Shown here: one piece after another, positions 51,195 through 57,253 of the stretch | Position numbering within the stretch: position 1 is the stretch's first letter | Layout of the letters: every line of letters starts with the position of its first letter | Origin: Defluviitaleaceae bacterium | GTDB taxonomy: Bacteria > Bacillota > Clostridia > Lachnospirales > WQUN01 | Assembly: GCA_009785605.1 (NCBI GenBank) | Contig: WQVY01000002.1 | Coordinates: 1-64,000 of the forward strand | Direction of reading: 5' to 3' | Length of the DNA: 64,000 nt | Notes under the pieces: model-generated | The model's input: the letters and a program-made list of their open reading frames with translations, nothing else | Databases searched by the model: none | What the model was told of the DNA's origin: nothing | Program-made: the position numbers and the translations under genes

Positions 51195-51638
51195 TTACTC
51201 GTCAAGCAAGTCAAAGTCCACCATGATAGGTGCATCCCCTGCTTCGCCATCTTCGTAGCTTATGCACTCCCCAAATGCGGCAGCATAAAAACTTGCAAAA
51301 TATTCGCCGTCATTGTTGTAGCCATAAGGGTCGTTGTAGGGTGTATAAGAATATGGGTTGTATGCGTAGTTGTAGTCATATCCATCGTAGTCGTATTCAT
51401 CATTGTTTTCGTAGATGTAGTTGTTTACGTAACCGTAGCCTACATAGTAGTTATAGTCATCTTCCTGCATTGTATATTCATAGTGATAACCATCGCCTAC
51501 TACATAGTCTTGATAACCGTCCGCACCATCAATAGCAAATACAACCACCGTGGCCACAACAGCCAACACTACAAGAAGTATCAAGACCCGAAACTTTTGT
51601 GATTTTGTTATATGCTTTAGTTCGTTTAACATAAGCAT
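51195..51638 (-). CDS. Membrane-anchored Tyr/Asp/Asn-rich low-complexity protein
   Basis: TM 'FRVLILLVVLAVVATVVVFAI' then 'DGYHYEYTMQEDDYNYYVGYGYVNNYIYENNDEYDYDGYDYNYAYNPYSY'; good SD. Confidence 0.65.
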   Translation of the reverse strand: MLMLNELKHITKSQKFRVLILLVVLAVVATVVVFAIDGADGYQDYVVGDGYHYEYTMQEDDYNYYVGYGYVNNYIYENNDEYDYDGYDYNYAYNPYSYTPYNDPYGYNNDGEYFASFYAAAFGECISYEDGEAGDAPIMVDFDLLDE

Positions 51639-53015: not shown

Positions 53016-53396
53016 GTGATACTCAACAACAAAATAAAATGCCTTATGCAGTTAAAGCGGCATGATGAATGCAAAAAAATAATTGAAGATGGGCTTGCTA
53101 TAGCCAAGAAGGGAAATAACGAAACAATCATCATCTATCTTGAAACAGCAAGATGTTTAATGACTATAAAAGACCCAAAATCCCAAGATTATCTAGAAAA
53201 TATCACAATCCCACACTTCCGAAACTCTAACACGACCCTAATATACGATGTACTTGAAATATGCTATACCCTAGAAAACTTCTACAATAAAAACCGCAGT
53301 AAAACTAAGGCATTGAACATGGCAAAAGTGTCACGGGATATTTTATATGAGATGTTTTATGGCCGCCCGGTAAAAATAGATGCGGTGTATCAGTAG
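53016..53396 (+). pseudogene. C-terminal fragment of TPR-type regulator, diverged relative of 55796-57082
   Basis: 'YLENITIPHFRNSNTTLIYDVLEICYTLENFYNKNRSKTKALNMAKVSRDILYEMFYG' parallels 'YLSEIVIPKLKEYGQHEAIVYYYEQLSNFYNELGNIDIAIKCSNHALEIQKQMYNELLEG'. Confidence 0.65.
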
Positions 53397-53811: not shown

Positions 53812-55175
53812 TTAGTACATTTCTACCCCAAGAACCGCATGGGCTAAATCTGACTTAACGAATATCATTGCATTATTCGCTGGGTCATTGGCCATAACAA
53901 GCCCTGCGACTATATTTGAGCCTGTGATAAAAACAAGTCCTCCACTGTCCCCACCAATGGCTCTTATATTTGTCCTGGTTAGATTGGTAAAGAACACTCC
54001 ATTTAGTGTCCCTCGATGGTCATCATCCACCACTTGTCCCCAAGTCTCGCCACGACTAAAATGCCCTACCATTGCTACAGTAGTCATTCGTCCTGGACGA
54101 TTATTTATTGTAGGCTGAATTGTTGACAGATGGCCACTAAAAGGCAATGAATTTGAAAGAATAACGTTGTGTTCGGTTTGAACAAAAACAGCGTCTACGC
54201 TACCACTAAAAGAGAACCCACTTACCCGTCCCATGATATCACGACTAACATTTAATGCCCAAGCATTATTCTGAACCCTACCGTGAGGAGATGTAAGAAA
54301 CCCCACAGCACTGGCATTTGCCCGCCTACGAACCCTATAACCAACAGGCCCTTCAAGACGACCAAATGCGGCAGTATCGAATAGGACATAACTCCCAGGG
54401 GCAACGTAAATGGGATTGTAAAATCGTGGATTTGATGTATATTCGCCCCAAAATATGCTCCACTTTCAGGAAGTAAATGCACGGTCCTTCCTGTATTGAT
54501 GTCCTGTATAGAACACATAAAACTAATCATAGGTGATTCGAAAAAATGCTTATGAAAAAAATAAATTTCATCTTCGTCATTATAATATATAACAACCCTA
54601 TTTAGCTCTGGCCTTATGCCAAACCAGAAATTATCAATAATCCCGGCGTAAACAAGTTCTACCATCCTATCCCATATTAGGTCAGCAGTTTCTTCAAGTT
54701 GAACATGACTAAATTCAACAGACTCTATGATAATACCATCTATATCACCAAGCCTTGCTATTCCAGTTTCGTAATAAGAACCTCGAAGATACAAATCTAC
54801 TACCGCAACTACCAATAACCCATCATCACCAATAAAAATACCACCCAAATGCTCTGGATATATAAAATTCGTAGCGGCATCATTTAGGCATAATGTGCTG
54901 TTAAGGATATCCATATACATGCGAGATCTTTCTTTATTTATTATTTCTTCGCGACTAAAACCCATTTGTAACAATATCTGGCGATGGAAATCGTTGAAAA
55001 ATTCATCATCATATAGGTCTGTTCTTTGAGGAGTATGTGATAAATAATAGATTTCGTTTACAGCCTTATCAAATGAACGAACCCTATGTCCATTATCATC
55101 TGCATATACCTCAATATGTCCTGTAAAACCAAGCAAAAATATCAATAAAAAAGCCAAGTAAGAATAATTCATCAC
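53812..55175 (-). pseudogene. Secreted S1 (chymotrypsin-like) protease gene split by a frameshift
   Basis: ORF 55175-54252 (signal peptide + propeptide-like) and ORF ending 53812 with 'RAIGGDSGGLVF'; intervening alternative frame reads 'PRFYNPIYVAPGSYVLFDTAAFGRLEGPVGYRVRRRANASAVGFLTSPHG' continuous with the second ORF. Confidence 0.7.
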
Positions 55176-55251: not shown

Positions 55252-55449
55252 TCATTGCGCTGGCGGCAGAGTTGGTGGTGGGCCGTCCAGGGGGCCACTA
55301 AAAGTCGTGAAAGTAATGCAAATACTCAGGCCGTGTTGTGCTGGTGGCTGGTATGGAGGCGGGCCGCCCTTTGGCCCCCCAAAAGCAGTTATAGGCAGGA
55401 CTAAAATCATCATAAGTACCAATAGCAAACCAATTAAACGTTTTCCCAT
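55252..55449 (-). CDS. Small secreted Pro-rich peptide precursor, copy 2
   Basis: MGKRLIGLLLVLMMILVLPITAFGGPKGGPPPYQPPAQHGLSICITFTTFSGPLDGPPPTLPPAQ; signal-peptide-like N-term; paralogous to 55587-55793. Confidence 0.75.
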   Translation of the reverse strand: MGKRLIGLLLVLMMILVLPITAFGGPKGGPPPYQPPAQHGLSICITFTTFSGPLDGPPPTLPPAQ

Positions 55450-55586
55450 GTCTACATATCCCCCTCTATTAACTCATTGTACATCTGCTTTTGTATCTCC
55501 AGTGCGTGATTGCTACATTTTAAAGCAGTTTCTATATTTCCAAAATCAAAATCACTTAGCTGCATGCAATAATCCACTTTAAGACC

Positions 55587-55793
55587 TCATTGCTCTGGTG
55601 GCAGGGATGGCGGTGGGCCATCATTAGGGCCACTATAAGTCGTGAAAGTAATGCAAATGCCCAGGCTATGTTGCGTTGGTGGTTGGGGCGGCGGGCCGTC
55701 TCCATCCCCACCTCCGGGCCCCCCAAAAGTAGTTATAGGCAGGATTAAAATCATCATAAGTGCCAATAGCAAACTAATTATATGTTTTCTCAT
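55587..55793 (-). CDS. Small secreted Pro-rich peptide precursor, copy 1 (candidate signalling peptide)
   Basis: MRKHIISLLLALMMILILPITTFGGPGGGDGDGPPPQPPTQHSLGICITFTTYSGPNDGPPPSLPPEQ; ATG two bases after the regulator stop codon. Confidence 0.8.
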   Translation of the reverse strand: MRKHIISLLLALMMILILPITTFGGPGGGDGDGPPPQPPTQHSLGICITFTTYSGPNDGPPPSLPPEQ

Positions 55794-55795
55794 GT

Positions 55796-57082
55796 CTACA
55801 TATCCCCCTCTAGTAACTCATTATACATCTGTTTTTGTATTTCCAGTGCATGATTGCTACATTTTATAGCAATATCTATATTTCCAAGTTCATTGTAAAA
55901 ATTACTTAGTTGTTCATAATAATACACAATCGCTTCATGCTGGCCATACTCTTTTAGTTTAGGAATGACAATCTCACTTAAATATTTTGCCGAATTCAAA
56001 TCATTATGCATTAATATGGAATGTTTTATAGCATCGAACTTTGTTTTCCAATATTCGCTTCTAGTTATGCTCATGCCTTTCTCTGCATACACTACAGCTT
56101 CGTCACTTTCATCGTTGTTTATTAGTGATGAAGCTTTAAGGTATATGCTGGCAATATGCCCACTTTCACCTACATGCAAATATTCTAATGCTTTATCGAA
56201 ATAATCTATTGCTTTATCGTAATCACTTATCCTTCTATAGACCCTTCCTAAACTAAAATACGTGTAACCCAATCCTTCTCTAGACTTATTTTTCGTTTCA
56301 ATTACATAGCGCCTCTCTAAAACTTTAAGAGCTTCATCACCTCTACCAATTTTACTAAGGTCATTGGCCAAATATCCATCAATATAAACATCAAACCTCC
56401 TGTTAGGCTTCCCATTATAAGCCTTACCCCACATAGCCATATGCTTCGCCTTTTTCAAGTACTCTACCGCCCTGGTAGCATAACCCCTGTCCGACAAGCT
56501 CATACCCAAGCCAAAATAAAAACGCACATCAGCCCATGTATCATTTTTGTCCAACTTTTCGGCCGACTTATACGATTTAATAGCATCTTGATAGTGCTTG
56601 CCCACAAACGCCTTAGCTCCTAACAGGCAGTTGTAGTGGTACCAATGTCTTGCGCTAAACTCATTGGTGCGCTGGCTTAGAGCTGTCATTGTTTCTTCAT
56701 AAGATTTCATATCATTTATAAGATAATAATAGTCCGCCGCGAGCAAATCATACATATTTATTGTGCTGGGGCTAAAAGAAGACATTGCGGACTTTTCCAG
56801 CCCAGGTTTGAGCTCACTTGCTTTGGCTATGTCACCGTAGTTAATTGTTACTTTCCAATCATAGAGGCGAGTCATAGTATCTTCTCTCTCTCTATCGAGG
56901 ATGGGAGAGCTATGCAAGTTGTACTTGTTCTTGAGTTTGACAACAAACTCAAAACTCGCCTGCTCCTTATTGGCTTCTAGGTTGTAAACATACGCCTCTG
57001 TACAGTCTAGGTCCTTGGCAAACTCGGCCAGCGACAGGCCAAGGCTTTGTCTTATTCTTGTAAGTGTCTTGCAGTATATCAT
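55796..57082 (-). CDS. HTH + TPR transcriptional regulator (RNPP/PlcR-Rgg-like)
   Basis: N-term 'LTRIRQSLGLSLAEFAKDLDCTEAYVYNLEANK' XRE HTH; multiple TPRs 'GLGYTYFSLGRVYRRISDYDKAIDYFDKALEYL'. Confidence 0.85.
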   Translation of the reverse strand: MIYCKTLTRIRQSLGLSLAEFAKDLDCTEAYVYNLEANKEQASFEFVVKLKNKYNLHSSPILDREREDTMTRLYDWKVTINYGDIAKASELKPGLEKSAMSSFSPSTINMYDLLAADYYYLINDMKSYEETMTALSQRTNEFSARHWYHYNCLLGAKAFVGKHYQDAIKSYKSAEKLDKNDTWADVRFYFGLGMSLSDRGYATRAVEYLKKAKHMAMWGKAYNGKPNRRFDVYIDGYLANDLSKIGRGDEALKVLERRYVIETKNKSREGLGYTYFSLGRVYRRISDYDKAIDYFDKALEYLHVGESGHIASIYLKASSLINNDESDEAVVYAEKGMSITRSEYWKTKFDAIKHSILMHNDLNSAKYLSEIVIPKLKEYGQHEAIVYYYEQLSNFYNELGNIDIAIKCSNHALEIQKQMYNELLEGDM

Positions 57083-57160
57083 AACGCCCCCTTACTTCAA
57101 GAATTTGTGCTATTTGTATTATTTTTCTCACTTGACCCATGTAAAACCATTTATGGGTTC

Positions 57161-57189
57161 ATAATACACGCCTTGATTCATTGTGTCAA
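57161..57189 (-). promoter_or_regulatory. Sigma-A-like promoter of the TPR regulator
   Basis: Minus strand TTGACA-17 nt-TATTAT, 5' of 57082. Confidence 0.7.
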
Positions 57190-57253
57190 TATGTAATTTG
57201 ATATTTTTGTATATATTTCGACAAATTTCACATTGACATATATCAGGGTGCTG

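Follow-up and report, generated by a model that had tools for sequence, protein, structure and literature searches.

A candidate RRNPP-type peptide signaling module with two tandem propeptide genes in a Defluviitaleaceae bacterium

Introduction

Peptide "quorum sensing" systems are those by which bacteria sense their own density. The RRNPP signature is a receptor of 250 to 500 amino acids (aa) and a propeptide of 10 to 100 aa encoded −60 to 400 bp apart, and the validated propeptides are 21 to 50 aa long (PMC10075063). Receptors of the nine-TPR group form clan B (PMC12700828). In NprR-NprX of the Bacillus cereus group, the gene for a receptor with an HTH and nine TPRs is followed by the gene for a secreted propeptide. 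Genomes with more than one pair, propeptide genes in tandem, and internal repeats have all been described before (PMC7425212, PMC7376267, PMC9765709). The main RRNPP survey was based on complete genomes (PMC10075063), so lineages available only as MAGs are poorly covered.

Here we describe a locus in a window of 64,000 nucleotides (the whole stretch of DNA analyzed), for which an earlier note had proposed a function in peptide signaling.

Results

A nine-TPR regulator precedes two tandem propeptide genes

The locus has the following features.

57197 to 57209, no strand assigned: AT-rich element TTTGATATTTTTG, just upstream of the −35 element
57161 to 57189, minus strand: regulator promoter, TTGACA-17-TATTAT, 11/12 consensus
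55796 to 57082, minus strand: regulator (receptor), 428 aa, ATG start; HTH plus nine helix pairs (TPR)
55587 to 55793, minus strand: propeptide 1, 68 aa; ATG 2 nt after the regulator stop
55452 to 55577, minus strand: duplicated regulator 3′ end, 126 nt, between the two peptide ORFs; carries the RBS of propeptide 2
55252 to 55449, minus strand: propeptide 2, 65 aa, a tandem copy

The earlier note had described an HTH-plus-TPR regulator that stops just before the start of a 68-aa ORF. ORF coordinates and Pfam agree with this description, with HTH_3 at residues 9 to 56 (E 4e-6) and TPR_8 at 4e-15. We then compared the regulator with receptors of known structure. A profile of 52 homologues aligned with NprR along the whole TPR region (1e-48), with Rap F, H, J, and I next, and NprR was the best natural full-length profile match of known structure. 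The AF2 model of the regulator (pLDDT 94.5) consists of the HTH and 18 TPR helices. It superposes on apo NprR (E 7e-10), with TM scores of 0.83 (by target) for peptide-bound NprR and 0.80 for RapJ-PhrC. Profile and superposition together place the receptor in the nine-TPR group and not with PlcR or Rgg. The RNPP-type receptor of the note is thus borne out, with NprR and Rap as the closest natural relatives of known structure; of the three architectures it had invoked, NprR-NprX held, and PlcR-PapR and Rgg-SHP, with five TPRs rather than nine, did not. One feature counts against the RRNPP reading: in the family's LYYNIAxCY stretch, the common Asn is Gly in the window receptor.

Clan A (PlcR-PapR/PrgX/ComR/Rgg) was ruled out by the 18 TPR helices and because the best RNPP matches are all nine-TPR proteins, and membership in Rap-Phr was ruled out by the HTH_3 domain. 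AimR, the arbitrium receptor, is phage borne, and the regulator had no match among 50,697 phage records. Viral contigs likewise gave no match in an alignment-based search. The plasmid search returned only a regulator of Mesobacillus foraminis (22%) and general TPR proteins, and the TPR part of the regulator distantly resembles phrog_5208.

We assigned the regulator promoter by position and conservation, because consensus matches across the region are not enriched overall. The same arrangement is found upstream of paralogue C79 and of a paralogue fragment on C16. This fragment (G000:C16:119-463) is a truncated regulator with a 110-aa ORF and a promoter region similar to that of the window, and it is apparently a pseudogene of the window regulator's family. 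In a search for a shared operator, TTTGATATTTTTG was exact in only two promoters, those of the window regulator and C79, which makes it a lead. The window holds three matches with at most one mismatch (one of them exact) versus 0.44 expected. We regard TTTGATATTTTTG as a candidate that may serve as an operator.

Propeptide 1 has its RBS, GAGGGGG, within the last codons of the regulator. The two small ORFs are related, as the earlier note had said, and both contain the shared sequence that it gave. We found that each combines a charged start with a hydrophobic stretch. The lengths of receptor and propeptides and the distances from the regulator (+2 nt for propeptide 1 and +346 nt for propeptide 2) fall within the RRNPP ranges. 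Both propeptides also have a predicted Sec signal peptide (positive start and hydrophobic stretch), called by our own charge/hydrophobicity rule rather than SignalP, so that the call is less stringent than in the published test. Nothing of note matched the propeptides in Pfam, NCBIfam, or PHROGs.

The 126-nt segment between the peptide ORFs is 76% identical to the last 43 residues of the regulator. Alignment of the two units showed that a single segment of about 330 bp, comprising the regulator 3′ end, the RBS, and the peptide, had been duplicated in tandem. The second peptide therefore arose by tandem duplication of the regulator 3′ end together with the peptide. The same unit is present in three copies at paralogue C5 and in two copies, with a shorter 3′ end, at C79.

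Small ORFs with predicted signal peptides recur next to related regulators

A single-sequence search of the source genome gave 17 matches to the window regulator, and a six-member profile gave 20. Twelve of these are near-full-length regulators (one with an internal stop), and the remainder are fragments or more distant TPR matches. The peptide-type clades have seven members in this genome, and six of them (window, C5, C79, C69, C78, and C36) have between one and three signal-peptide ORFs directly behind them; no such ORF follows C6. Homologues of the regulator occur in 12/38 genomes of the same family and 20/295 genomes of the order, counts that include the source genome. The low counts from the class and phylum scans are lower bounds (five candidates scored per genome). 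A genome_contigs scan with the regulator gave no match, and taxonomy was taken from TopA, whose relatives belong to "Defluviitaleaceae" MAGs (82 to 85% identity for the nearest). The relatives examined closely are MAGs, a caveat for the RRNPP reading, and isolate prefixes suggest an origin in termite-gut metagenomes.

We scored coupling strictly, requiring an ATG, a net charge, a hydrophobic stretch, and a start at most 60 nt from the regulator stop, and drew on 60 further loci. We found that 39/71 regulators were followed by such an ORF versus 3/164 unrelated control genes (Fisher p=2e-21, which overstates the independent evidence because the regulators are mutually related). The tree meets this caveat: over 72 regulators, the adjacent-peptide trait required 10 changes versus 24 in shuffles, so the trait goes with clades. 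Similarity among receptors was also correlated with similarity among peptides (Mantel 0.28, 0/999), as expected if pairs are inherited together. The coupling noted in the window recurs in both paralogues and relatives. Counting against the RRNPP reading, an adjacent peptide gene is missing from many homologues, among them C6 and an entire sister clade.

In the tree, this sister clade comprises 17 regulators without a peptide gene, including those at L017, L018, L019, L021, L095, L097, L099, L100, L101, L109, and L113; the source-genome contigs C121, C103, C125, and C3 are among these loci. Head to head with the regulator lies a long surface-type ORF at 11 of the 15 loci with enough upstream sequence, whereas only 3/34 peptide-type loci have any divergent secreted ORF. 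The facing ORFs mostly have a Tyr/Asp-rich N terminus and usually run off the contig. The surface-type protein at L018 has a Chlam_PMP repeat.

The window itself contains a Tyr-rich secreted 147-aa ORF (51195 to 51638, minus strand). At a distance of 1.4 kb lies the C-terminal remnant of another regulator (53016 to 53396, plus strand; E 8e-14 with profile A1). The two apparently represent a peptide-less module that has decayed.

The peptides are under purifying selection and share a motif

We pooled 21 pairs of tandem or close peptide copies and obtained a dN/dS of 0.45, with signal and mature parts alike. The window pair gave 0.44 overall and 0.26 for the mature part, and only one pair (L082) exceeded 1. 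The tandem copies are under purifying selection, and we obtained none of the results that the earlier note had named as refuting its reading. GC-rich Pro/Gly codons make open frames likely, so the small ORFs might be chance frames downstream of TPR genes. Set against the excess over control genes, the pooled dN/dS, and the conservation of RBS and motif, this explanation is barely credible.

The motif (A/G)GPxGGGxxPP emerged from 56 mature sequences with a log-likelihood of 261 versus at most 157 in shuffles. It directly follows the signal peptide in most propeptides, lies near the C terminus in one group (L098, L104, L105, L106, and L121), and occurs more than once in the window, C5, C69, and L086 peptides. 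After this module, many peptides have PP, a few residues, and then a hydrophobic core (QLSICI, QLSITI, QLSIII, RSIALP, LRIVLP, or TRIIIP). In most tandem pairs, the core is more conserved than the Gly/Pro spacer; with a division chosen after the sequences were seen, the PP-plus-core stretch was 73% kept and the spacer 58% (p 0.005). L106/L121 is an exception, with a better-kept C-terminal module. The mature signal most likely lies within the PP-flanked hydrophobic core, which at the window locus would place it within PPAQHGLSICITFTT. The GPxGGGxxPP module may be either part of the signal or a linker or processing element. The earlier note had favored a pheromone of the form SGPxDGPPPxLPPxQ. 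This is possible at the window locus but does not generalize, since C79, C78, and C36 have no such C terminus and the core is better kept.

The peptides could also be effectors, such as a bacteriocin or a surface or matrix peptide, controlled by a regulator that senses something else. Their mature parts are longer and more Pro/Gly rich than known RNPP pheromones, and several relatives (L093, L102, and L110) have Cys-rich tails. However, the receptor has the fold of dedicated peptide receptors, its similarity tracks that of the peptides, no conserved immunity, maturation, or export gene lies nearby, and the peptides match no protein family. We therefore consider effectors improbable and favor a peptide signal. 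The length of the propeptides, about 40 to 87 aa and mostly greater than that of validated ones, does count against the RRNPP reading.

If the peptides are signals, the second copy might be a decoy or a divergent message instead of an increase in dose. This would be a variant of the signaling model and does not compete with it. The window copies differ at defined positions (S/G, G/S, and Y/F), and Rap systems are known to include pairs of dissimilar propeptides (PMC9765709). In contrast, the mature parts of tandem copies in the source genome are under purifying selection (dN/dS 0.07 to 0.55), and the hydrophobic core is kept between copies. On balance, we think a decoy or divergent message unlikely.

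A probable protease adjoins the peptide genes

Two further ORFs lie downstream of propeptide 2.

54252 to 55175, minus strand: signal-peptide-bearing ORF for the N-terminal portion of a probable secreted protease (S1-like)
53812 to 54306, minus strand: C-terminal part of the probable protease (GDSGG), in another frame

The earlier note had placed a secreted S1 protease here as a typical output. A protease is probable, but it is split over two frames and weakly assigned. Neither ORF matched a Pfam family or a PDB sequence, and recognition came only from GDSGG and one homologue with a subthreshold Trypsin_2 match. The pair (53812 to 55175) probably represents a single secreted protease of the S1 type that a frameshift has divided; the frameshift may be either real (a true pseudogene) or an assembly error.

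The claim of a typical output was not supported, and we ruled out the protease as a general module partner: the genes after the peptides differ among loci with no conserved output gene, the source genome has no second copy, and homologues are scattered. It simply adjoins the peptide genes and would be a candidate module member at most. At the window locus alone, a protease may be the output, as in NprR-NprA. At C36, an S41 peptidase follows the peptide gene. In two genomes (L076 and L077), a similar ORF, subtilisin-like as judged by sequence alone, lies downstream of the peptide on the opposite strand, convergent to the regulator-peptide pair.

Discussion

A two-gene intercellular signaling module of the RRNPP type very probably explains the locus. 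According to this model, the regulator would bind DNA via its N-terminal HTH and a short peptide via the superhelix of its nine TPRs. Both small ORFs would encode propeptides that are exported by Sec, cut by signal peptidase, and trimmed extracellularly to a short peptide. An oligopeptide permease would then bring this peptide back into the cell, where the adjacent receptor would bind it and alter transcription, probably including that of its own operon. The source genome encodes four SBP_bac_5 (OppA-type) proteins, whose part in peptide import is a prediction, and Spo0A.

We tentatively propose that the family may be an undescribed RRNPP subfamily in which the pheromone combines a Gly/Pro-rich GPxGGGxxPP module with a hydrophobic core, tandem copies carrying the receptor 3′ end adjust the dose or variety of the signal, and a sister clade has moved from peptide genes to the control of giant Tyr-rich surface proteins encoded head to head. 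A literature search pairing the lineage with quorum sensing found no paper in the library searched. The family brings in peptides that differ from the described classes, and its genomes, from a gut lineage that is uncultured, hold several independent receptor-peptide pairs apiece. Its many natural pairs and tandem variants offer material for studying how receptor specificity evolves.

Among known systems, PlcR-PapR and Rgg-SHP share the general receptor-peptide logic, but their receptors are five-TPR proteins (PMC12700828), whereas nine helix pairs make up the window receptor. For SHP the route is PptAB, and not Sec as predicted for the window-family propeptides. Rap-Phr of Bacillus and phages has the nine-TPR fold and occasionally paired propeptide genes (PMC9765709), yet Rap lacks an HTH and acts on response regulators through an N-terminal three-helix bundle. 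AloR-AloP of Paenibacillus and Qsr-Qsp of Clostridium acetobutylicum also have many paralogous pairs per genome, each with an HTH-plus-TPR receptor followed by a peptide (PMC7425212, PMC7376267). Compared at the level of the peptides, they differ (SHGRGG for AloP13 and AEPTWGW for QspB). NprR-NprX shares the gene arrangement and is the best match in sequence and structure. Unlike NprX, the window-family propeptides are Gly/Pro rich, longer, and often in tandem, and SKPDIVG is absent from all 56; the TPR region of the window receptor is about 18% identical to that of NprR in the structural alignment. Since multiple pairs, tandem genes, and internal repeats have precedents, the window family looks like a new subfamily of a known kind of system (RRNPP), with an unusual peptide.
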